Assembly: GCF_013377085.1 (NCBI RefSeq)
Contig: NZ_JACAAX010000001.1
Span: 1-64,000 of the forward strand
Reading direction: 5' to 3'
Length of the DNA: 64,000 bases
Source of the DNA: Rhodoplanes sp.
GTDB lineage: Bacteria; Pseudomonadota; Alphaproteobacteria; Rhizobiales; Xanthobacteraceae
In this document: positions 15,538 to 25,050 of the stretch, in pieces
How positions within the stretch are numbered: the stretch's first letter is position 1
Layout of the letters: every line of letters starts with the position of its first letter
Made by a program: the position numbers and the translations under genes
Notes under the pieces: model-generated
Seen by the model: the letters and a program-made list of their open reading frames with translations, nothing else
The model's database searches: none
What the model was told of the DNA's origin: nothing

Positions 15538-16995
15538 CTACGCGTCCATCAGTCTGGTGAGGGCGGCGTAGTCCGGCTTCGACCGGTGTCGGCGGTCGAG
15601 CGGGATCGCGGCGAGCGGCCGCACCGCGATGCCGAGCGTCGCGAGCCGGTTCGCAAAATCGTCGCCGAGCCGCGGCGCCGCCCCCTCGACGAACAGCACG
15701 ACGCGATCCTGCACTGCCACCACGGCGGCGCCCGTGACGCCCGGCTGCAGGCGCGCCGCCGTCTCGATGGCGAAGGGGTGCAGGCCGGGACGTGACGCCG
15801 CCAGCCGCCCGAGCAGCCAGAGACGGCCTTGCTGGTCGAGCCGCCCGGCGTCGCCGGTGCGATGGAAGATGCGGCCGTCGCGGCGCAGCTTGGTGACGGC
15901 GTCCTGCGCGCGATCCATGTAGGTCTCGTTGACGTGCGGACCGGCGACCAGGATCTCGCCGTCCTCGATCAGCACGGTCGCCTCCGGCACCGGCGCGCCG
16001 ACCGGCAGGCCGCCGCCGCGCGCCGCCTCCTGCCAGTCTGTTTCGGACAGCGCCTCGGCCTCGACGTGGCTGATCGGCTCCGCCTCGGTCGAGCCGTACA
16101 CGATGGTGAGACCGGTACCGGGGTTTCTTGTCAGGAACGCGCGGGCGACGTCGGGATAGACCGGTCCGCCGCCGGTGAGCACGCGCCGCACCGGCGTGGT
16201 GAGTCCGTCTTGCGCAAGGCGTGCCGTGATCACGGGCGGCACCAGCAGGCGGGTGACGCCCATGGCCCGCGCCTGACGGGAGATGGTCTCGCCGCTCACC
16301 CTGTCGTGCCGGCGCAGGTCCCAGCCCGGCATCACCACCGTGGTGCCGTGGCCCAGGCAGGTGAGCACGAAGGCCGGGAAGGCGACCAGGTCGGTCTCGT
16401 GTTCGTCCTGCGGCGCGATCAGCGAGGCCAGCGCCTCGTGCTGGGCCAGCAGCAGGCCGTGGCTGCGCACCATGCCCTTGGGCTTGCCGGTCGTACCACT
16501 GGTGAACGAGATCAGCGCCGGATCGGCTGCCGCCACGGTGGGAGAGGGCGCCGCGTCGGCGTCACCGACCGAGCGGGGAGACAGGCCGAGCGGAATTTTT
16601 CGCGTTTCAGGAAACAGCCATGACAGCAGCCGGATCGGCCGGTCGGCCAGCAGCGCCTTCGGCGCGGCCGCGGCCGCGGCATGGCGGAACCCGGCGAGAC
16701 CCATGGCCGCCTCGGGCAGCACTGCGACGGCGCCGAGTCGCCAAAGTGCCGCGAGCGATGCGTAGAGCGCGATGCCGGGCCACACGGCGACCAGCACGTG
16801 GTCGCCTTTGCCGATCCCCTTCGCCGCCCATGCGGCGGCGAGTTCTTCGGCGCGCTTCGATAGACCGGAATAGGTGATCGTGCTGCCGTCGCGCTCGACG
16901 ATGGCAGTTCGGTCCGGATGCTCCGCCGTTCGCTGCGAAAAGTGGTCGAGCAGCGTCACGTTTCGGCATCCCGGCTCGTGTTTGATTGGCGTCAT
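15538..16995 (-). CDS. AMP-dependent ligase, OleC/acyl-CoA-ligase-like
   Basis: This 485-residue adenylate-forming enzyme is the last gene of the seven-gene operon. It has the P-loop motif FTSGTTGKPKG, the core motif VYGSTEAEP, the HRTGDAGRLDQQGRLW stretch, and a late Lys in RSKPDY that fits the catalytic lysine. The TEAEPISHVEAEAL and VAGPHVNETYMDR segments resemble OleC-type ligases (beta-lactone synthetases of olefin biosynthesis) more than ordinary acyl-CoA ligases. That comparison is from memory. Expected chemistry is ATP activation of a fatty, hydroxy or other carboxylic acid. Its start lies 30 bases past the stop of the upstream GNAT gene. Confidence 0.82.
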   Translation of the reverse strand: MTPIKHEPGCRNVTLLDHFSQRTAEHPDRTAIVERDGSTITYSGLSKRAEELAAAWAAKGIGKGDHVLVAVWPGIALYASLAALWRLGAVAVLPEAAMGLAGFRHAAAAAAPKALLADRPIRLLSWLFPETRKIPLGLSPRSVGDADAAPSPTVAAADPALISFTSGTTGKPKGMVRSHGLLLAQHEALASLIAPQDEHETDLVAFPAFVLTCLGHGTTVVMPGWDLRRHDRVSGETISRQARAMGVTRLLVPPVITARLAQDGLTTPVRRVLTGGGPVYPDVARAFLTRNPGTGLTIVYGSTEAEPISHVEAEALSETDWQEAARGGGLPVGAPVPEATVLIEDGEILVAGPHVNETYMDRAQDAVTKLRRDGRIFHRTGDAGRLDQQGRLWLLGRLAASRPGLHPFAIETAARLQPGVTGAAVVAVQDRVVLFVEGAAPRLGDDFANRLATLGIAVRPLAAIPLDRRHRSKPDYAALTRLMDA

Positions 16996-17025
16996 GGCGA
17001 GAATCGCTTCAAACCGAGCACGGTT

Positions 17026-17826
17026 TCAGAGACGCCTTCCCATCAGGGCGTAGCGGCGGATCGGCCGTCCGCCGAACTTCTTGCTCTGCGACGCCGAGGC
17101 GATGCCGTCGCGCATCAGCGCGTGAACGACCTCGGAGAAACCCGCCTCGGCCGCGGTGGCGTGGACGATGTCGGCCATCCGCCGGCCGATGCCCGGCAGC
17201 AGCCCCGCATAGGTCTTCAGCACCACGGCGCCTTGGCGGAGTGGATCCGGGAACGCCAGCGTGAAGCCGACCGGGCGGCCGCCGGCATCGCGTGCCGCCA
17301 GCACGAAGCGCGGATCCGCCTTGGCGAGGGCCGGCCGATAGGCGGCGACGAAATGCTCGCGTGGGATCGGCCGGAAGAAGGCCGTCCTGGCGAAGGCCGC
17401 CATGACGACCCCATGCGCGTCGGCGAGCAACATTTCAGAATCGCGGCCGTCCCACGCCGTCACGGTGACGTCCTGCGGGCCGACGGTCGTAAAACCGCGC
17501 GAGCCGGGCGCGGCGACGGCGGACGAATGCGTCTCGGCGATGTCGAAACCGGCCGCGAGATAGGCCTCGAGATCATACGGCCCGGTCTTCGGTTCACCGA
17601 AAAAGGCCGGGCTGCCGTCGCTCCAGATCACGACGCGATAGGAGCCCCAGGTGTCGCCCGCCATCGGCCCGACGATCGCCTCGAAGCCGCGGTGCCGGGC
17701 CTCGGCTTTCGCCTCGCTCAGATAGGCTTCCCCGGCGGCGGCGTCGGCAAAGACAGGGCTGGCGATCGCCGCGGTTCGGCGGCTGTTCCACGGCAGGGTT
17801 TCCGAGATCGCGATGTCCTGTGTCAT
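17026..17826 (-). CDS. GNAT-like acyltransferase of unknown substrate
   Basis: This 266-residue protein has a VGPMAGDTWGSYRVV segment and an FFGEPKTGPYDLEAYLAAGF region, a pattern I associate with a GNAT-superfamily subgroup. The C-terminal half (GRPVGFTLAFPDP... GIGRRMADIVHATAAEAG) fits the acyl-CoA-binding half. ATG 17826 is preceded by CAGGAG at good spacing. ATG 17850, which overlaps the upstream stop as ATGA, is an alternative. It would transfer an acyl group to an amine within the operon pathway. No specific substrate can be named. Confidence 0.62.
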   Translation of the reverse strand: MTQDIAISETLPWNSRRTAAIASPVFADAAAGEAYLSEAKAEARHRGFEAIVGPMAGDTWGSYRVVIWSDGSPAFFGEPKTGPYDLEAYLAAGFDIAETHSSAVAAPGSRGFTTVGPQDVTVTAWDGRDSEMLLADAHGVVMAAFARTAFFRPIPREHFVAAYRPALAKADPRFVLAARDAGGRPVGFTLAFPDPLRQGAVVLKTYAGLLPGIGRRMADIVHATAAEAGFSEVVHALMRDGIASASQSKKFGGRPIRRYALMGRRL

Positions 17827-17846
17827 CACCAAGACTCCTGACTGCG

Positions 17847-19154
17847 TCATCCGCCCCGACAGGCGATTGCGTAGGCGACTGCGGGAATCGCAAGCGCCAG
17901 CGCCGTGAACAGCGGGCCGCGGCGATAGGGCAGGATCGGCCGCCAGGCGGCGCCGAACGCACAGGCCGCGATGGTCAGCGCCGCCGTCACGGCCGCTTCG
18001 GCCCGCCCGGCCCACAGGATGTCGGCGCCGTCGCCCGAAATGATCCAGCGTTGCACCAGAAAGGTCGCCACCGAGATTGCGGCGGCGGCGGCGAGCCGTC
18101 GGTCGAGCGCCCTGGTCTGCAGGCACAGCACGGCGAGGCCGGCGAGCACGCCCGCAAACGTGATGGTGTAGAACTCGGTGCCGAGCTTTCCGGTGATGCC
18201 GGCCACCGTCAGCCAGAACACGCCGATCAGGCAGACGACGGCGACGAAGTCGAGATCGTCGAGCTCGGGGTTCTGGGCGTCGCGGCGCGAGAAGACGTGC
18301 GCGACGAAGGCGGCGACCGGCAGGATGGCGTGGCGTGGCGCCGTCATGCCGGCGGTGAGAAACAGGCACACGGCGGTCGAGCGCAGCGCATGCGGCGTCA
18401 TGCCGACGAAGCGTGCGGAAAGCTGCGCCACCGCCATGGATCCGACGAAGGCGGCGGCGAGCAGCGCCAGCAGCAGCGGGTCGGCGTCGCCGTTGAAGGT
18501 GAGGAGCGCGTGGATGCCGAGCGGCACGAAGATGTTGTCGAGCCCCTTCCACGACTCCGCCTCGACCTGCGCCGCGAAGGCCGCCACCACGGTCGCCAGC
18601 AGCACGGTGTTGAGGCGCGGTACGTCGGTCGCCGTGATCAGGATCGTCACCGCCACCATCCAGGTGACGACGAAGAAGACGGCCGTGCCCTCGATGCTCT
18701 TGATGCGGTCGCCGGAGCCAAAGCGGCGCCGGCCATAGGCGGTGCCGATCACGGCGGCGGCGGCGTCCGACAGCGTCAGCACGGCGATCGGCAGCACGTA
18801 GAGGGCAGGGCTCCCGGGTGCGCGCACGAACAGCACGGCGACCGACAGCAGGAACAAGAGGTCGCCCCACGAGCGCCGCTCGACCGAATGCACCGAGGCG
18901 CCGGCGCCGCGGCTGCCCCAGGGCGAGCGCAGGATCATGAGCGCGACCAGCGCCAGCGCGGCGAAGATGAAGAAAGAGGCGCGGTCGAGCACCAGCGGCA
19001 GCAGCATCGCGTGCACGCCGACGCCGACATGCACGAGCTTGCGCTGCGCCTCCGCCGGCCAGCCGAACTTGAGCCCGGCGATGCGCACGCCGTAGGCCAT
19101 GCCGAACAGCGCTGCGACCGAGGCGATGGCAATCAGGATGCCGAGCGTCGTCAC
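17847..19154 (-). CDS. Phytol/dolichol-kinase-like (VTE5/CDP-diglyceride-synthase superfamily) membrane protein
   Basis: This 435-residue integral membrane protein has roughly ten hydrophobic segments. The AEAQRKLVHVGVGVHA, SDAAAAVIGTAYGRRRFG, KSIEGTAVFF and WKGLDNIFVPL stretches match the layout of CTP-dependent prenol kinases (VTE5, Sec59) and related cytidylyltransferases. The expected reaction is phosphorylation, or CDP activation, of a long-chain isoprenoid or lipid alcohol. It is longer than typical VTE5 proteins, with extra C-terminal membrane segments. GTG 19154 is chosen because it overlaps the stop of the upstream gene (GTGA). Confidence 0.75.
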   Translation of the reverse strand: MTTLGILIAIASVAALFGMAYGVRIAGLKFGWPAEAQRKLVHVGVGVHAMLLPLVLDRASFFIFAALALVALMILRSPWGSRGAGASVHSVERRSWGDLLFLLSVAVLFVRAPGSPALYVLPIAVLTLSDAAAAVIGTAYGRRRFGSGDRIKSIEGTAVFFVVTWMVAVTILITATDVPRLNTVLLATVVAAFAAQVEAESWKGLDNIFVPLGIHALLTFNGDADPLLLALLAAAFVGSMAVAQLSARFVGMTPHALRSTAVCLFLTAGMTAPRHAILPVAAFVAHVFSRRDAQNPELDDLDFVAVVCLIGVFWLTVAGITGKLGTEFYTITFAGVLAGLAVLCLQTRALDRRLAAAAAISVATFLVQRWIISGDGADILWAGRAEAAVTAALTIAACAFGAAWRPILPYRRGPLFTALALAIPAVAYAIACRGG

Positions 19155-20242
19155 GTCACGTCCTCGATGACCAGATCGGCGTAGAAGAACGCCTTGTCGG
19201 CGGCGGCGAGCCGCGCTTCGAGCTCGGCGTTCCGGCGCACTGCGCTCGCGTGAACGGCCGGCACCCTGCGCGGTGCCATCATGTTCCAGTAGACCAGCCG
19301 CGCGCCGGGATTCGAAAGGCTCAGCAGCCGCCCGTAGCAGGCCGAAAACTCGTCCGCCGCCATATACTCGAACACATCCGACAGATTGAAACCGTCGAAT
19401 TTTTGCGCCGCTTGGTCGTCGACGCGGCCGAGGCCGACGTCGAGACGATCGAGCCGCGCCCGGATGGTGGCAAAATGCTCCTCGCGCCAGGCGAGCGGCA
19501 GCGCGCCCGCGTGACGGCCGATCAGGATCCACTGCATGTACGGATTTTTCGACGGATCCTGGTCGACCGCGGCCTGCCGCACCTTTCGCCGCACCTGCGC
19601 CGGCAGGCTCCCCTCTGCATGAGCGAAGAAGGCGGGATCGCGGCCGAGCCGCCCCATCACAAAACGCGAGAAGAAAAGATTTGTTGCGAGCCGCCAGCGC
19701 CAGTTGTTCCAGTGCTCGGTGAAGAAGTTTTCGCGGTCTTCGCGAGAGCGCGGCACGAACACGCCCTCGACCGTCGCGGCGCCATGAATCAGTGGCAGGA
19801 TGCGGCGCCGGAACACCGCAAAATAGTGCTCGAATTTTCCGACTCCGGCGAGACCGAGTATTTCGACCGCATCGAGCCGCGTCTGCCAGAACTCGCGCGC
19901 GGCGGGCGAGAGCGCCGGCAGCACGCGCTGCATCAGGGCGGTGCGGTCGATCGCGGGCGTCGGCTCCATCAGGGCGACGAACTCGGCCCAGGCCAGCGTG
20001 CGCATCGCCGCGATACGGACCGCGAGGCAGTGGAGCTGCGCCTCCGACAGGTCGCGCACCACGACGGTGCGGGGATCGAGCAGCAGCAGCGCCAGCGCGT
20101 TGTCGCCGGCCGAGCACACCGACAGGAAGGTGCGTCCGGGCGGGCCGGCGAGCGCGTCCACGAGAATATCGGCGTCCTCCCACACCTGCGCGTAGCGCAC
20201 GATGTCGAAGCGCGCCTTTGATGCGATCCCTGTTTCAGGCAT
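19151..20242 (-). CDS. DUF3419 protein, BtaA-like 3-amino-3-carboxypropyl transferase
   Basis: This 363-residue protein's YAQVWEDADILVDAL and FLSVCSAGDNALALLLLDPRTVVVRD-like start (two adjoining segments near residues 17-65) fits DUF3419/BtaA. It has the AG-x-NALxL SAM-binding loop and the later NLSDVFEYM and LVYWNM segments. BtaA moves the aminocarboxypropyl group of S-adenosylmethionine to diacylglycerol in betaine-lipid synthesis. The companion methyltransferase BtaB is absent here, and the neighbours are isoprenoid enzymes, so the acceptor may differ. It overlaps the PEP-synthase-like gene by 8 bases and the kinase-like gene by 4. Confidence 0.8.
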   Translation of the reverse strand: MPETGIASKARFDIVRYAQVWEDADILVDALAGPPGRTFLSVCSAGDNALALLLLDPRTVVVRDLSEAQLHCLAVRIAAMRTLAWAEFVALMEPTPAIDRTALMQRVLPALSPAAREFWQTRLDAVEILGLAGVGKFEHYFAVFRRRILPLIHGAATVEGVFVPRSREDRENFFTEHWNNWRWRLATNLFFSRFVMGRLGRDPAFFAHAEGSLPAQVRRKVRQAAVDQDPSKNPYMQWILIGRHAGALPLAWREEHFATIRARLDRLDVGLGRVDDQAAQKFDGFNLSDVFEYMAADEFSACYGRLLSLSNPGARLVYWNMMAPRRVPAVHASAVRRNAELEARLAAADKAFFYADLVIEDVT

Positions 20243-22841
20243 CGATCCGCCTCACGGTTCCGATCGAGCCGTCGACCTCGACCTCCTCGCCGGTGGTGAG
20301 CCAGGCGCAGGCGCCGGCGAGCGCGACCACGCATGGGATGCCGAGCTCGCGCGACACGATGGCAGAGTGCGACAGCACGCTGCCGCGCTCGACCACCACG
20401 GCGGCGGCGTTGACGAAATGCTGAATCCAGCCCGGATCGGTGTGGCGGGCGACCAGGATTTCGCCCGGCTGGAGCTGATCGGTCACCGGATCGCGGATGA
20501 CGCGGACTTTTCCCCTCGCGCGACCGGACCCGCAAGGCGTGCCGCGGCGCTCTTTTTGCGCATCGATGCCGGGGGACACCGTGGCCGTCGTGCCGGCACG
20601 AATGCGCGCCGAGCGATCCCCCACGGCGCCGCGCAGAAGAATGCGCTCGGGTGGATCGGGCAGGGCGGCGTCGCGGGTGCGCTCAGCCTTGCGCAGCGCC
20701 ACCAGCCCAGCGAGGTCGTGAGTCACGGCATGGCCCTCGGCGGCGCCCAAGACCTCGTCGACGGTGAGGCAGAACACGTCCGCGGCGTTTTCCACACGCC
20801 CTGTCGCGGCAAGCGCCGCGCCCATGGCGAGGAAGACGCGCCGGGCACGCCCGAAAATCCGGGTGCGCTCGAACCGCAAATTCTCGCGGTCGCGCACCCG
20901 CGCCTTGGTGTAGGCGAGCAGCGCCGAAGCGACGCGGCGCTTCACGGGCTTGTCGTGGAACAGAGCCGAGAGGGTGGTGTCCGGGGCCGGCGCCGTTCCC
21001 CCCACCCCCGACCCCTCCCCGCCACTCGCTTCGCTCGCGGGGGGAGGGGAGTCGAGGCGCTTCGGCTCCCCTCCCCCCATTCGCGTCAGCGAATGGCGGG
21101 GAGGGGTCGGGGGTGGGGGGCTCTTTCGGAAGCCCGTATCGTTCTTACGCGACGCCGCCAGCACGGCGGCGAGCAGGGGGGCGGGGTCGTCCGAGAGGGT
21201 GGGGGATTCGAGCTTCAGCTCGCCGATGCGGCGGTCGCCGAAGCGGTCGATGTAGGCGCGCAGTTGCGGCCCGAGCGCCGGATGCGCGAAGGCGGCAGCG
21301 ACGTCGCCGGCCGTGATCTGATCACGCAGCGCCGGCCCGGCCTGCGCCAGCGCCTCGCCGGCGGCGCGGATCAGGCGTGCCGGCTCGGCCGAGACGATGT
21401 CGCCCTGGCCGATCATCACGTCGTTGTGGAGGGCGAGGCCGTTTGGGCCGGCCCAGCGCTCCATCAGGCGGCGGGAGCCGCCATAGGCCATCATGCACAG
21501 GAAGTCGTTGACGATCGGCGCGTCCCAGCGGTCGAGCAGCGCCGCCTCGATGCGGCGATACTCGGCGGCGAGCGCCGACAGCGGCTTTTGGGCGAGGTCG
21601 TCGGCGCTGCGGCCGGGCGGGACGCAGGCCGCCATGCGGCTCATGAAGCGCGCCCGCGTGACCGGCAGCAGCAGCGCCCCGCGAAAAAGGCCGAGGATCA
21701 TGCGCAACGCCGCAAGAACGCCCGGCCGCGCCGTGTCGCCCACCGCCTCGTCGGGCAGCGGCTGCGACACGCCCATCATGGTCTCCATGCTGGCGCGGTT
21801 TTTTGTAAACAGCGGCAGCAGCGACAGGAGCCGGTACCAGCTCCCGAGATTGTAATACATGCGGCCGTCGACCAGCGTCAGCATCCCGGCGAGGTCGGCC
21901 GCGTGCGCATCGATGACGGTGCGCCGCACGCCGATCATCCCTAAGAACGCGCGGTAGACGCGGTCGTAGGCCATGGCGGCAAAGCTGAAGGTGAGCGGCG
22001 AGACGAGGCCCGGATAGCTCTCGACGATGTTGGAGTTGTCGAGCACGGTCAGCTTGGTCTCGGGCGTCCAGGCGGGCAGCAGCCGGCTGGTGATCGGCCG
22101 GTCCTGCAGGTGAAAGGGCCCGGCGCCGTCGGGACCAAAAGCCCATTCGATGTCCTGCGGCCGGGCTTTTCGCGCCTCGGCGCGCACGCACAGGGCGGCG
22201 ACGGCCTTGGCCTGCGCATCGGTCAGGATCGCGTCGTCGGGGCTGTCCAGAATCTCCAGCGTCGCCTTGTCGAGCCGCCAGGTCTCGCCGTCCTGCTCGC
22301 CGGCGACCAGCCGGTCGCCGAGGCCTTGCACGGCCGAAATCACCACCCTGTCGGTGCGGCCCGACACCGGGTCGGCCCCGAAGGCGACACCCGCCGCGGA
22401 CGCCGCCACCATGCCCTGGACGACCACGGCCGGCAGCTCGGCGCCGGTGAGCCCCTTGGCGGTGCGATAGTCGGCGACGCTGCCGGCGAGGCCGGATCTG
22501 ATCACATGCACCACGGCCGTCGGCACGTCGTCCGCCGTCACGTCGAGCACGGTGAGAAACTGGCCGGCATGGGAGTCGGCGGCGCCGTCCTCCGAGCGCG
22601 CCGAGGAGCGCACGGCGAACCGCGTCAGCTTTTCGCGCACGAGGCCGGCGAGGCGCGTCTCGATCTCGGCGACCGCCTCCGGCGGCAGCGAGCCGTCCTC
22701 GCCCAGCGCCTCGGGGACGACGACGAAGAAGCCCGGCATCGGCACGCCGGCCGAAGAAGACTGCGCGAGGGCAAACCCCTTGCCGCCGGCGACGCCCGCG
22801 CCGGCCGCGATGATGTCCTGGATCGCCAGCGTAAAGGCCAT
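20235..22841 (-). CDS. PEP-synthase/rifampin-phosphotransferase-like phosphotransfer enzyme with in-frame palindromic insert
   Basis: This 868-residue protein (about 827 without the insert) has an N-terminal ATP-grasp PPDK-type domain (GGKGFALAQ near residue 20, then FAVRSSARSEDG). A central substrate domain begins with DNSNIVESYPGLVSPL, and the C-terminal swivelling histidine domain carries GSVLSHSAIVSRELGIP. Domain order and length match rifampin phosphotransferases and other dikinases that move phosphate from ATP through the histidine to a small acceptor. The acceptor is unknown; isoprenoid neighbours suggest a lipid alcohol or carboxylate. A 123-bp repeat adds 41 Pro/Gly/Ser-rich residues near 574-614, between the central and histidine domains. 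ATG 22841 lies 2 bases past the ubiA-like stop. Confidence 0.8.
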   Translation of the reverse strand: MAFTLAIQDIIAAGAGVAGGKGFALAQSSSAGVPMPGFFVVVPEALGEDGSLPPEAVAEIETRLAGLVREKLTRFAVRSSARSEDGAADSHAGQFLTVLDVTADDVPTAVVHVIRSGLAGSVADYRTAKGLTGAELPAVVVQGMVAASAAGVAFGADPVSGRTDRVVISAVQGLGDRLVAGEQDGETWRLDKATLEILDSPDDAILTDAQAKAVAALCVRAEARKARPQDIEWAFGPDGAGPFHLQDRPITSRLLPAWTPETKLTVLDNSNIVESYPGLVSPLTFSFAAMAYDRVYRAFLGMIGVRRTVIDAHAADLAGMLTLVDGRMYYNLGSWYRLLSLLPLFTKNRASMETMMGVSQPLPDEAVGDTARPGVLAALRMILGLFRGALLLPVTRARFMSRMAACVPPGRSADDLAQKPLSALAAEYRRIEAALLDRWDAPIVNDFLCMMAYGGSRRLMERWAGPNGLALHNDVMIGQGDIVSAEPARLIRAAGEALAQAGPALRDQITAGDVAAAFAHPALGPQLRAYIDRFGDRRIGELKLESPTLSDDPAPLLAAVLAASRKNDTGFRKSPPPPTPPRHSLTRMGGGEPKRLDSPPPASEASGGEGSGVGGTAPAPDTTLSALFHDKPVKRRVASALLAYTKARVRDRENLRFERTRIFGRARRVFLAMGAALAATGRVENAADVFCLTVDEVLGAAEGHAVTHDLAGLVALRKAERTRDAALPDPPERILLRGAVGDRSARIRAGTTATVSPGIDAQKERRGTPCGSGRARGKVRVIRDPVTDQLQPGEILVARHTDPGWIQHFVNAAAVVVERGSVLSHSAIVSRELGIPCVVALAGACAWLTTGEEVEVDGSIGTVRRIDA
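20998..21120. repeat. Palindromic repeat element inserted in frame in a coding gene
   Basis: The ends 20998-21024 and 21094-21120 are perfect 27-bp inverted repeats. Inside are a 13-bp perfect pair (21039-21051 with 21066-21078) and a small hairpin ATTCGC/GCGAAT. The whole element is 123 bases, a multiple of three, with no stop in the reading frame of the host gene. It could fold into a branched cruciform. The composition and CCCCTCCCC core resemble palindromic repeats scattered in rhizobial genomes, as I recall them. Confidence 0.85.
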
Positions 22842-22843
22842 GG

Positions 22844-23779
22844 TCAGATCCGGATGACGAACGGCAGCGTCGCGGCGAGCACGTAGCAGAGCAGGATCCA
22901 GATCCCCGACAGGGTCTCCAGCCGCTTCTGCGCCGCCGGCGTCGGGCTCGCCAGTAACGTGATCATGCTGCCGGCGATCGGCAGCGAGGCCGCCGCGCCG
23001 GCGATCACGAACCATTTGGTCATCGCCAGCACGTGCCCGTAGGCGATGAGCGCGAAGAATCCCAGAAGCCAGGCGCCGGCGAGCGCGGCGACGGCGGCCG
23101 AAATTCCCCAGGCCGACGTGTAGGTGTCGACGCCCGGCCGCTCGTTCACCGGCGCCCAGATTTTTCGGCTGAACTCGGCGACGCAGCCATTGGCGAGGCT
23201 CATCAGCAGGAAGGTCCACAGGCCGGTGGGCAGGCCGTGGCCGGCCGGCAGCCACTCGCAGCCGGTCAAAAACACGTCGATCAGCGGCATGATCGCCATG
23301 TGGGTGGCGAGATAGAGCGCCGGTGAGGCATGCAACAGCTTTGGGGCGAAGAACTCGACCGTCATCAGGCCGAGCCAAGCCCACACCATCAGCACCAGCA
23401 GCACCAGCCACGGATCGAACGCGAAGGCCGCTGCGAGGGCGACGAAGGACGACGCGATGCCGAGCCCGACGATCAGGCGCAGCGAGACCAGGCCGCGCGG
23501 GATCGGCCGCTCGGGCCGCCAGCGGGCGTCGGTGTCGGCGTCCTTCACCTCGTCGGCGACCCGCATCTGCCAGAAGAACACCAGCACGACGACAAAGGCC
23601 GTCGCGTAGGCCCAAAACTCCGGTACCGGCCGCCCGGCGAGATGCGCCGACGCCGTCACCGAGGAGGCCGAGAAGGCGAGCAGCAGGGGAATGGTGCGAG
23701 CGAGGGGGAAGCGCTCCGCCTGATAGATCCACAGCCGGCCGGCCAGGCTTTTCGGATCGGCTCCGGCGAGATCGGACAT
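22844..23779 (-). CDS. UbiA-family membrane prenyltransferase
   Basis: This 311-residue protein has about eight or nine transmembrane segments. The first Asp-rich motif is seen as DEVKDADTDARWRPERPIPRG, split at residues DEVKDADTD and RPERPIPRG, near residue 75. A second polar loop follows near NGCVAEFSRKIWAP, where the usual DxxxD is only partly kept. The family attaches prenyl chains to aromatic or polar acceptors at the membrane. The ATG shares its A with the TGA of the HMG-CoA reductase gene, so coupling is tight. The chain donor and acceptor are unknown. Confidence 0.83.
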   Translation of the reverse strand: MSDLAGADPKSLAGRLWIYQAERFPLARTIPLLLAFSASSVTASAHLAGRPVPEFWAYATAFVVVLVFFWQMRVADEVKDADTDARWRPERPIPRGLVSLRLIVGLGIASSFVALAAAFAFDPWLVLLVLMVWAWLGLMTVEFFAPKLLHASPALYLATHMAIMPLIDVFLTGCEWLPAGHGLPTGLWTFLLMSLANGCVAEFSRKIWAPVNERPGVDTYTSAWGISAAVAALAGAWLLGFFALIAYGHVLAMTKWFVIAGAAASLPIAGSMITLLASPTPAAQKRLETLSGIWILLCYVLAATLPFVIRI

Positions 23780-25050
23780 CAGTGTCTCCCGCGGGCGAGG
23801 CGCTTGTGGGCGGAGCCGAACTGGCCGCCCGCGACTGCCGCCGTGAGCGACAGCTCGCCGCACAGGCAGAGCGCGGCCGCGACCTCGGCGAGCGCCGGTG
23901 CGTGCCCGGTGCCGGCGAGCCCCATCACATCGAGTGCGGCGCGTTGCGACGGCAGGCCGGTGCCGCCGCCGACGGTGCCGACCAGAAGGTTCGGCAGCGT
24001 CACCGTCACCTTGAGGCCGATGTCGGAGGGCTCCATGCGGGTGTAGCCGACGGCGGATTCGGCCACGCAGGCCGCGTCCTGGCCGGTGGCCAGATAGAGC
24101 GCCGCGAGCGCGTTGGCATAGTGGGCCTGCGCGCCGATCTGGCCGGACAACAGCGAGCCCAGATTGGCGATGCGGCCGTATTCGAGAATGCGCGCAATGC
24201 CGACGCCGAGCACATCCTCGACCACGGCCGTCGGCAGGTCGACCTGGGCCGTCACCTTGCGGCCGCGCCCCTGCATGACGCCGAGGAACGAGGCTTTCTT
24301 GTCGCCCGAGTAGTTTCCTTCGAGGAACCAGGAGAGCGGCGCGATCGGGCACTGCGCCAGCGCGGCGCGGCAGAGCGCGTCGGTCGCGAACGTCACCATG
24401 TTCTGGCCGGCGGCGTCGCCGGTAAAATAGGTGCACAGCAGGAACACGACCTCGCCGTCGATCACCGGGTCGATCGAGACGAGCGCGCCGTGCCGGGTGG
24501 TTTCGTTCGCGGCCGCGGTGAGCAGCTCTGGATTGCCCGCCACCCAGTCGACGAAGCGGCCGGCATCGGCGATCGAGGCGAAGCGGAAGGCGGGCGTGCG
24601 CAGCACGCCGTCGGAGAGCGTCGTCGCGGCGATGCCGCCGGCCCGGTTGGCGGCGGTCGCGCCGCGCGCATAGGAGGCGACCAGCGCCGCCTCGGTGGTC
24701 GCCATCGGGATCAGAAAGTCGCCATGCGCGTTGAGGCCGTTCACCCGCAGCGGCCCGACGATGCCGACCGGCACCTTCACGGTGCCGATCATGCTCTCGA
24801 TATTGGCGGAAAAGCTCTCGGCTGCGGCGATGGTCGCGTCGTCGGCGAGCGCCGCCTGGGCGGAGGGCGGAACGCCGGCGGCCACGAGCCGCGACCACAG
24901 CCGCGCGATCGTGCCGGCGGTCGTGCGCGGCACGATGCGGAACGGCGTCGGTGCGCCCGGACGGGAGTCCAGCCGTCCGGCCGCCTCGGCGACCGACATC
25001 ATGGCGCGGATGCGCGCGATGAAGCGGGCGGTCTTTGGAGCGATCAGCAC
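23779..25050 (-). CDS. Hydroxymethylglutaryl-CoA reductase, class I-like
   Basis: This 423-residue protein has the catalytic residues of HMG-CoA reductase: Glu in ESMIGTVKVPVGIVGPL, Lys in FLEGNYSGDKKAS, Asp in GDAAGQNM, and the late His in GSAHKRL. The motif forms resemble the class I (eukaryote/archaea-like, NADPH) branch rather than the class II enzyme of some bacteria. The reaction reduces HMG-CoA to mevalonate and is committed in the mevalonate pathway, unexpected because alphaproteobacteria normally use the MEP route. No other mevalonate gene is in the window. It is the first gene of the seven-gene operon. Confidence 0.88.
   Translation of the reverse strand: MLIAPKTARFIARIRAMMSVAEAAGRLDSRPGAPTPFRIVPRTTAGTIARLWSRLVAAGVPPSAQAALADDATIAAAESFSANIESMIGTVKVPVGIVGPLRVNGLNAHGDFLIPMATTEAALVASYARGATAANRAGGIAATTLSDGVLRTPAFRFASIADAGRFVDWVAGNPELLTAAANETTRHGALVSIDPVIDGEVVFLLCTYFTGDAAGQNMVTFATDALCRAALAQCPIAPLSWFLEGNYSGDKKASFLGVMQGRGRKVTAQVDLPTAVVEDVLGVGIARILEYGRIANLGSLLSGQIGAQAHYANALAALYLATGQDAACVAESAVGYTRMEPSDIGLKVTVTLPNLLVGTVGGGTGLPSQRAALDVMGLAGTGHAPALAEVAAALCLCGELSLTAAVAGGQFGSAHKRLARGRH

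Follow-up and report, generated by a model that had tools for sequence, protein, structure and literature searches.

What does a homologue of 3-hydroxy-3-methylglutaryl coenzyme A (HMG-CoA) reductase (HMGR) do in a bacterium whose genome has neither HMG-CoA synthase (HMGS) nor mevalonate-diphosphate decarboxylase (MDD)? The question is raised by a seven-gene operon of Rhodoplanes sp., located on the minus strand within the first 64,000 nucleotides of contig NZ_JACAAX010000001.1 (assembly GCF_013377085.1), the whole stretch of DNA that we analysed and refer to as the window. In transcription order the operon encodes an HMGR homologue, a UbiA-family prenyltransferase, a phosphotransferase resembling rifampin phosphotransferase (RPH) and phosphoenolpyruvate (PEP) synthase (hereafter the dikinase), a BtaA-like DUF3419 protein, a VTE5-like polytopic membrane protein, a tandem GNAT acyltransferase and an AMP-forming acid ligase. 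We tentatively propose, while granting the idea somewhat less than an even chance, that these genes form a self-contained pathway, spread horizontally, that makes an amino-acid-headed lipid or lipid-like metabolite not described before. Every assignable enzyme of the operon belongs to a known superfamily, and no description of this gene set was found among the papers listed by full-text searches of open-access articles in PubMed Central.

In the proposed pathway, the AMP ligase would activate a carboxylic acid as its CoA ester and the HMGR homologue would carry out a four-electron reduction of this ester, in place of HMG-CoA, to a primary alcohol. The VTE5-like protein, the dikinase or both may phosphorylate the alcohol, which UbiA, perhaps paired with the dikinase, could then join to an acceptor. 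The DUF3419 protein would add an aminocarboxypropyl group from S-adenosylmethionine (SAM) and the GNAT protein would acylate the amine. In some hosts the product may be further hydroxylated and sulfated, as neighbouring genes for a cytochrome P450 and a sulfotransferase suggest.

Conservation and spread of the operon

A contig scan gave 480 pattern matches, 407 of which were relatives, and the loci examined here are the best 80 of these 407 by DUF3419 similarity. Gene order and strand were kept in all 80 returned loci (74 complete, six cut by contig ends), with median junctions of -4, -4, -8, -4, -4 and -8 bases, all six of them overlaps. This degree of conservation indicates that the operon arrangement is beyond chance and, together with the gene calls, bears out the initial annotation of seven minus-strand genes as one block. 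The junctions of the window itself are -1, +2, -8, -4, +20 and +30 bases in transcription order; an alternative in-frame ATG nine codons upstream (start 17853) would turn the junction before the GNAT gene from +20 into -7. Among the 69 entries with seven complete genes, protein distances show pairwise correlations of 0.83-0.95 across the seven proteins.

The distribution of the operon is patchy. When 60 genomes of the genus, family and order were searched, the own genome included, the operon-type DUF3419 gene was absent from the 59 relatives (next best match E 8.6e-22). Among 385 genomes of the class it was present only in the own genome and in one other, G243, and among 398 genomes of the phylum only in the own genome (G243 is not in that table). 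Neighbourhood conservation, on which the initial annotation had staked its hypothesis, is thus missing among close relatives and strong at a distance. A plasmid of Roseinatronobacter sp. S2 carries all seven genes in order at 38-65% identity, although the start of the record divides the HMGR gene. The family of Roseovarius nubinhibens (G463) has the operon in 12 of 149 genomes; in the five of these 12 that were inspected, the gene order is again the same up to the contig ends. Record titles of the loci include Ruegeria, Roseovarius, Sulfitobacter, Yoonia, Loktanella, Bosea, Devosia, Hyphomicrobium, Chelativorans, Rhizobium, Roseibium, Dongia, Marinicaulis and two Halomonas, so that the hosts include many bacteria of sea and soil. 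Among the type strains with the operon are Roseovarius nubinhibens ISM (L101) and Loktanella salsilacus (L071). The operon is a cohesive accessory unit that is horizontally spread and kept whole. A viral source was rejected, as IMG/VR gave 20 pattern matches and no relative.

A locus from Roseibium (L090) has the best score for six of the window proteins, namely HMGR (69% identity), UbiA (56%), dikinase (54%), VTE5-like protein (54%), GNAT (57%) and AMP ligase (56%). Its DUF3419 protein is only 54% identical to that of the window, with other loci reaching 57%, which hints at replacement of the DUF3419 gene alone.

The HMGR homologue lies outside the mevalonate pathway

The first gene of the operon (23779-25050, minus strand, GTG start) encodes a class I type HMGR homologue that matches PF00368 (E 4e-101, 339 bits versus a cut-off of 27) and falls short of the NCBIfam equivalog cut-off, with 297 of 442 bits. 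Its nearest solved structure is 6hr7, and no other HMGR was found in the window genome. We examined mevalonate-pathway genes and IspH, of the methylerythritol phosphate (MEP) route, in 33 genomes, comprising the own genome, G243 and 31 of the 80 locus genomes. HMGS was absent from 32 of the 33, as was MDD, the window genome included in both cases, and IspH was present in the same 32. The earlier view of a lone HMGR outside the mevalonate pathway is upheld by these results, and we reject a place for the operon HMGR in an isoprenoid route. A fragment of the mevalonate route that feeds ordinary isoprenoids would be compatible with the fold and class I assignment of the protein; with HMGS and MDD missing where IspH is present, and with the changed pocket described below, this explanation is largely refuted and we regard it as highly improbable.

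The exception among the 33 genomes was Shimia sp. R10_1 (G467), which has the operon (L107) and, on contig G467:C3, a mevalonate cluster (L164) in which a second HMGR accompanies MDD, HMGS, two GHMP kinases and a gene of the FMN-dependent dehydrogenase family. No IspH match was found in this genome, and the strain therefore seems to have swapped isoprenoid pathways. The second HMGR has the canonical Ser, Lys and Asn at three pocket positions at which the operon HMGR of the same genome has Glu, Ala and Gln; judged by these residues, Shimia sp. R10_1 retains both kinds of HMGR in one cell. As to a full mevalonate pathway elsewhere in the genome, which the initial annotation had named as a competing explanation for the HMGR gene, a mevalonate cluster was found in one of 33 genomes and came with its own canonical HMGR.

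Catalytic residues are kept and the acyl pocket is altered

Of the 80 loci, 75 yielded an HMGR; exclusion of three incomplete sequences (L046, L078 and L097) left 72 complete orthologues which, with the window protein, gave 73 operon HMGRs. These were compared by alignment with class I enzymes and a further 19 alphaproteobacterial HMGRs, using the numbering of human HMGCR. Of the 19, five are canonical class I enzymes, 12 are without the DKK loop and were read as class II, and two (L151 and L152) are of an odd type. Glu559, Arg590, Asp690, Lys691, Lys692, Asn755, Asp767 and His866 are kept in 73/73 operon HMGRs, with Asn755 aligning with the conserved Asn313 of the window protein. Three other positions have changed in every member. 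Ser684 of the cis loop is replaced by Glu (Glu244 in the window, codon 24319..24321, minus strand), Lys735 by Ala (Ala295, codon 24166..24168, minus strand) and Asn750 by Gln (Gln308, codon 24127..24129, minus strand), each in 73/73, and one residue is deleted directly after this Ala. Ser, Lys and Asn occupy positions 684, 735 and 750 in 5/5 of the canonical class I controls and in four PDB alignments. Lys735 is described in PMC9500038 as forming a salt bridge to the carboxylate of the HMG moiety of a bound statin.

Because the catalytic residues are kept and S684E, K735A and N750Q are fixed, the chemistry would be retained and the acyl end of the pocket rebuilt. The presence of this signature in 73/73 argues that the operon HMGR does not make mevalonate. 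In a tree of 81 HMGR sequences (FastTree, midpoint root) the 73 operon HMGRs form one clade with support 0.84. They share with the archaeal/eukaryotic class I HMG-CoA reductases the domain, the catalytic Glu, Lys, Asp and His, Arg590 and the cis-loop DKK, but differ in the three substitutions, in the NCBIfam score and in residing mostly in genomes that have no mevalonate pathway (32 of 33). As the clade lacks the HMG-specific residues, we have not filed it with the ordinary HMG-CoA reductases and, going by its pocket signature, it is probably not an HMG-CoA reductase.

A different use of the canonical activity has to be weighed at this point. Fungal siderophore pathways draw on mevalonate through SidI and SidF, and on that model the operon HMGR would still make mevalonate, from HMG-CoA released by leucine breakdown, the AMP ligase would convert it to mevalonyl-CoA and the GNAT protein would cap the amine made by DUF3419, to give a mevalonyl-capped aminolipid. 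HMGS might be unneeded if leucine supplied the HMG-CoA, the AMP ligase and GNAT share the operon, and the catalytic residues and Arg590 are intact. With Ser684 and Lys735 altered in 73/73, however, and with a canonical and an operon HMGR both present in Shimia sp. R10_1, we consider this alternative unlikely.

The two odd HMGRs (L151 in G418 and L152 in G340) represent another lone alphaproteobacterial type, with Pro at position 684, Asn at 735 and Ser at 590 in place of Ser, Lys and Arg. No UbiA, dikinase, DUF3419, VTE5-like or GNAT match was found near them in the 14 and 20 kb examined. They were dropped as related loci, the only nearby match being a weak one of the AMP ligase to an acetyl-CoA-synthetase-like gene.

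The DUF3419 protein and its variant context in G243

The DUF3419 protein, a putative aminocarboxypropyl transferase (19151-20242, minus strand), matches PF11899 (E 1e-48, 167 bits versus 28), the family of BtaA, the SAM:diacylglycerol 3-amino-3-carboxypropyl transferase. The window protein is well separated from the BtaA-like DUF3419 proteins, and E-values in the class search drop from 5e-98 to 3e-24. Thirty-two residues are conserved in both the operon and the BtaA-like clades, whereas 45 positions that are conserved within each clade differ between them. A second DUF3419 gene of the window genome (G000:C42:23399-24448) is closer to the BtaA-like set.

In betaine lipid operons the partner methyltransferase of BtaA is BtaB, encoded by an adjacent gene. 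No BtaB-like methyltransferase was seen, on inspection of the sequences by eye, among the gene clusters present in at least six of 82 loci, and the operon DUF3419 protein was therefore not filed as an ordinary BtaA. These observations bear on the idea that the operon makes a betaine lipid of the diacylglyceryltrimethylhomoserine (DGTS) kind with the help of accessory genes. The BtaA family membership and the 32 shared residues speak for it; the missing BtaB-like gene, the 45 switched positions and the existence of the other, more BtaA-like gene speak against it, and we give it little credence.

The operon-type DUF3419 protein of G243 occurs in a variant arrangement (L044:6810-13658), in which a dikinase, DUF3419 (46% identity), a UbiA homologue (31%) and a GNAT-like gene are consecutive and a gene of the phosphatidylserine-decarboxylase family (PF02666, E 1.6e-47) comes next. 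The GNAT-like match is weak (E 3e-4, down to 8e-9 against other loci, with no Pfam match). The 14.9 kb contig has no match to HMGR, the VTE5-like protein or the AMP ligase; as these three are missing together, they look like one module, which would lead from acid to CoA ester, alcohol and phosphate. In G243, the neighbouring decarboxylase and aminocarboxypropyl transferase suggest that the head is an aminopropyl group. There is a parallel in microcin C, where, according to PMC10491745, an aminopropyl group is made by transfer of aminocarboxypropyl from SAM and decarboxylation, with other enzymes (MccD and MccE); MccD, the same paper states, is not homologous to BtaA.

UbiA and the dikinase

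The UbiA-family prenyltransferase (22844-23779, minus strand) matches PF01040 at E 2.6e-10 and 40.5 bits, against a cut-off of 34.2. The first Asp motif, DExKDxxxD, is present in 75/76 orthologues. The second motif is ExxRK...E..GV..Y in 75/76 and not the canonical second Asp-rich motif of UbiA proteins.

The dikinase (20235-22841, minus strand) contains PF01326 (PPDK_N) and PF00391 (PEP-utilizers), that is, an ATP-grasp domain and a swivelling C-terminal His domain in the same order as in RPH-type phosphotransferases. The His-domain motif SxLSHSAIV is found in 77/80, and the PDB matches (9dae, 8a8e and 5fbs) are all named PEP synthase. PF02896 is the C-terminal PEP/pyruvate-binding barrel of PEP synthase and pyruvate dikinase; it was not found in the window protein, in which Pfam detected only PPDK_N and PEP-utilizers. 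The likeness to RPH and to the PigC and RedH ligases lies in the ATP-grasp and His domains, but the scores are far under the NCBIfam equivalog cut-offs, at 162.5 of 999 bits for RPH, 214 of 1350 for RedH and 187 of 1300 for PigC.

Homologues of both enzymes recur side by side in an AfsA-type megaplasmid cluster of Streptomyces clavuligerus (L162:5505-10882), in the order AfsA, ICMT, dikinase and a UbiA-like 'hypothetical protein' (E 2e-7), and this adjacency suggests that the two enzymes may work as a pair. The cluster differs from the operon in having AfsA, ICMT and an oxidoreductase, and no match in it to HMGR, DUF3419, the VTE5-like protein or GNAT. Its gene content is reminiscent of the phosphotriester (salinipostin-type) clusters, a link that is unconfirmed.

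The VTE5-like protein, GNAT and the AMP ligase

The VTE5-like protein (17847-19154, minus strand, GTG start) is a putative alcohol kinase with an all-helical model (pLDDT 89.6). The motif reads DAAAAVIGTAYG...KSIEG in the window protein, and its regular expression, D..A...G...G...K[SK]..EG, that of VTE5 and dolichol kinases and the sole basis of the label, is found in 64/80 orthologues and in no non-orthologous sequence among 1351 called open reading frames (ORFs). No match was found in Pfam (at 1e-3), NCBIfam or PDB, and a fold search of BFVD gave one match, to an uncharacterised protein (E 0.37 despite a probability of 1.00). In pairing a kinase-like motif with a UbiA protein, the operon recalls the tocopherol branch with its VTE5 phytol kinase and UbiA-type phytyl transferase, from which it differs in that no aromatic acceptor genes were seen, the kinase is only predicted and the five other enzymes are unlike.

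The tandem GNAT acyltransferase (17026-17826, minus strand) also has no Pfam match at 1e-3 and was assigned from the fold match of its model (pLDDT 91.5), which Foldseek places with the tandem GNATs at a probability of 1.00 (E 2e-11 to 3tt2 and 8e-9 to the mycothiol synthase 2c27). Acetyltransf_1 was matched at E<=1 by 11 of 39 aligned members, at best with 5.8e-4. The last gene encodes the AMP-forming acid ligase of the OleC/fatty acyl-CoA ligase type (15538-16995, minus strand; PF00501, E 7e-44), in which the RTGD and RHxSK motifs are each kept in 74/78. It matches NF006754 at E 4e-72, under the cut-off of that model, and is below the NCBIfam OleC equivalog cut-offs (142 of 900 and 127 of 850 bits). 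Pfam thus supports five of the seven window proteins (HMG-CoA_red, UbiA, PPDK_N with PEP-utilizers, DUF3419 and AMP-binding). The protein labels of the initial annotation stand for these five and, by fold, for GNAT, while the VTE5 label remains at the level of a motif.

Nature of the product

The initial annotation had proposed an isoprenoid or ether-type lipid. The enzymes fit a specialised lipid that carries an aminocarboxypropyl group from SAM; an isoprenoid made via HMGR is doubtful in view of the signature in 73/73. A more specific version of our proposal, which we regard as possible but speculative, is a new class of homoserine-headed (phospho)lipids. In it, the operon HMGR would found a class I-fold family that reduces a non-HMG acyl-CoA and feeds coupling by the kinase, UbiA and the dikinase, with P450 and sulfotransferase decoration in some hosts and a sister branch, represented by G243, in which the head is decarboxylated to give an aminopropyl lipid.

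Several observations weigh against the proposed pathway. The order of its steps is our inference and its product a predicted one. The loci were chosen, 80 of 407, by DUF3419 similarity, and the mevalonate and IspH results cover 31 of the 80 locus genomes only. Residue 293 of the HMGR, close to the lost Lys735, is Arg in 48/73 and Lys in three, which might replace that lysine, so that a carboxylate could still be bound. The 45 switched positions of DUF3419 may mean that its acceptor, or even its reaction, differs from that of BtaA, and the VTE5/dolichol-kinase label is putative. Scores of the UbiA homologues stay under the Pfam cut-off of 34.2 bits in G243 (27.2) and S. clavuligerus (19.6), and a second AfsA-type cluster, of S. 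durmitorensis (L161), has the dikinase and no UbiA match.

The product could also be a small secreted specialised metabolite or signal, such as a phosphate ester or an N-acyl homoserine ether, and not a membrane lipid. The patchy spread (12/149 genomes in one family, none of 59 relatives), the plasmid location in Roseinatronobacter, the P450 and sulfotransferase genes adjoining the operon in some hosts and the recurrence of UbiA and dikinase in an AfsA-type cluster are all in keeping with this. No dedicated exporter, regulator or carrier protein, however, was seen by eye among the clusters present in at least six of 82 loci, and that both UbiA and the VTE5-like protein sit in the membrane speaks for a lipid substrate; we consider a secreted product rather improbable.

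If the pathway reading of an amino-acid-headed lipid or lipid-like metabolite is true, many roseobacters, Hyphomicrobiales and some Halomonas share a fixed set of seven enzymes whose product is a molecule for which no name was found. The fold of HMG-CoA reductase, the statin-target enzyme, is usually read as 'mevalonate pathway'; it would then have a second use, and the pocket should be checked before lone HMGRs of MEP-route bacteria are annotated as mevalonate enzymes.

Neighbouring genes and a repeat in the dikinase gene

The commonest extra clusters of the 82 loci were ABC ATPases (23, scattered), a P450 (15), a sulfotransferase (13) and a second P450 (6). The remaining clusters in at least six loci were, by eye, short-chain dehydrogenases (6) and antisense ORFs, and no universal eighth operon gene was found among them. 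By direct count a P450 gene adjoins the operon in 20/80 loci, in 14 of them together with a sulfotransferase gene. This pair is divergent from HMGR in 13 loci (for example L052:2978-5361, confirmed by Pfam) and lies directly after the AMP ligase in L057; L061 carries a second sulfotransferase. In six other loci a different P450 stands directly before HMGR (five, for example L055:3961-5358) or after the AMP ligase (L125), and in L174 a sulfotransferase piece of 63 residues lies just before HMGR. The occurrence of the same partner genes at two sites suggests a functional link, with hydroxylation and sulfation as optional tailoring. The pair is present in L071 and not in L101, and the window itself has neither a P450 nor a sulfotransferase gene. 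A GntR gene upstream in the window was rejected as an operon partner, having no match in the 80 loci, and phosphate control was rejected since no Pho-box-like site was found in 74 upstream stretches of 300 bases.

The dikinase coding sequence of the window contains a palindromic repeat element of 123 bases (20998..21120), 85% identical to its own reverse complement, whose in-frame translation adds roughly 40-50 Pro/Gly/Ser-rich residues. Dikinase residues 569-601 and 608-617 are absent in >85% of 75 aligned proteins. The palindrome has 70 matches in the own genome, on both strands and in about 35 places by row count, and the 141-nt stretch at the palindrome folds at -129.5 kcal/mol (z -12.9).

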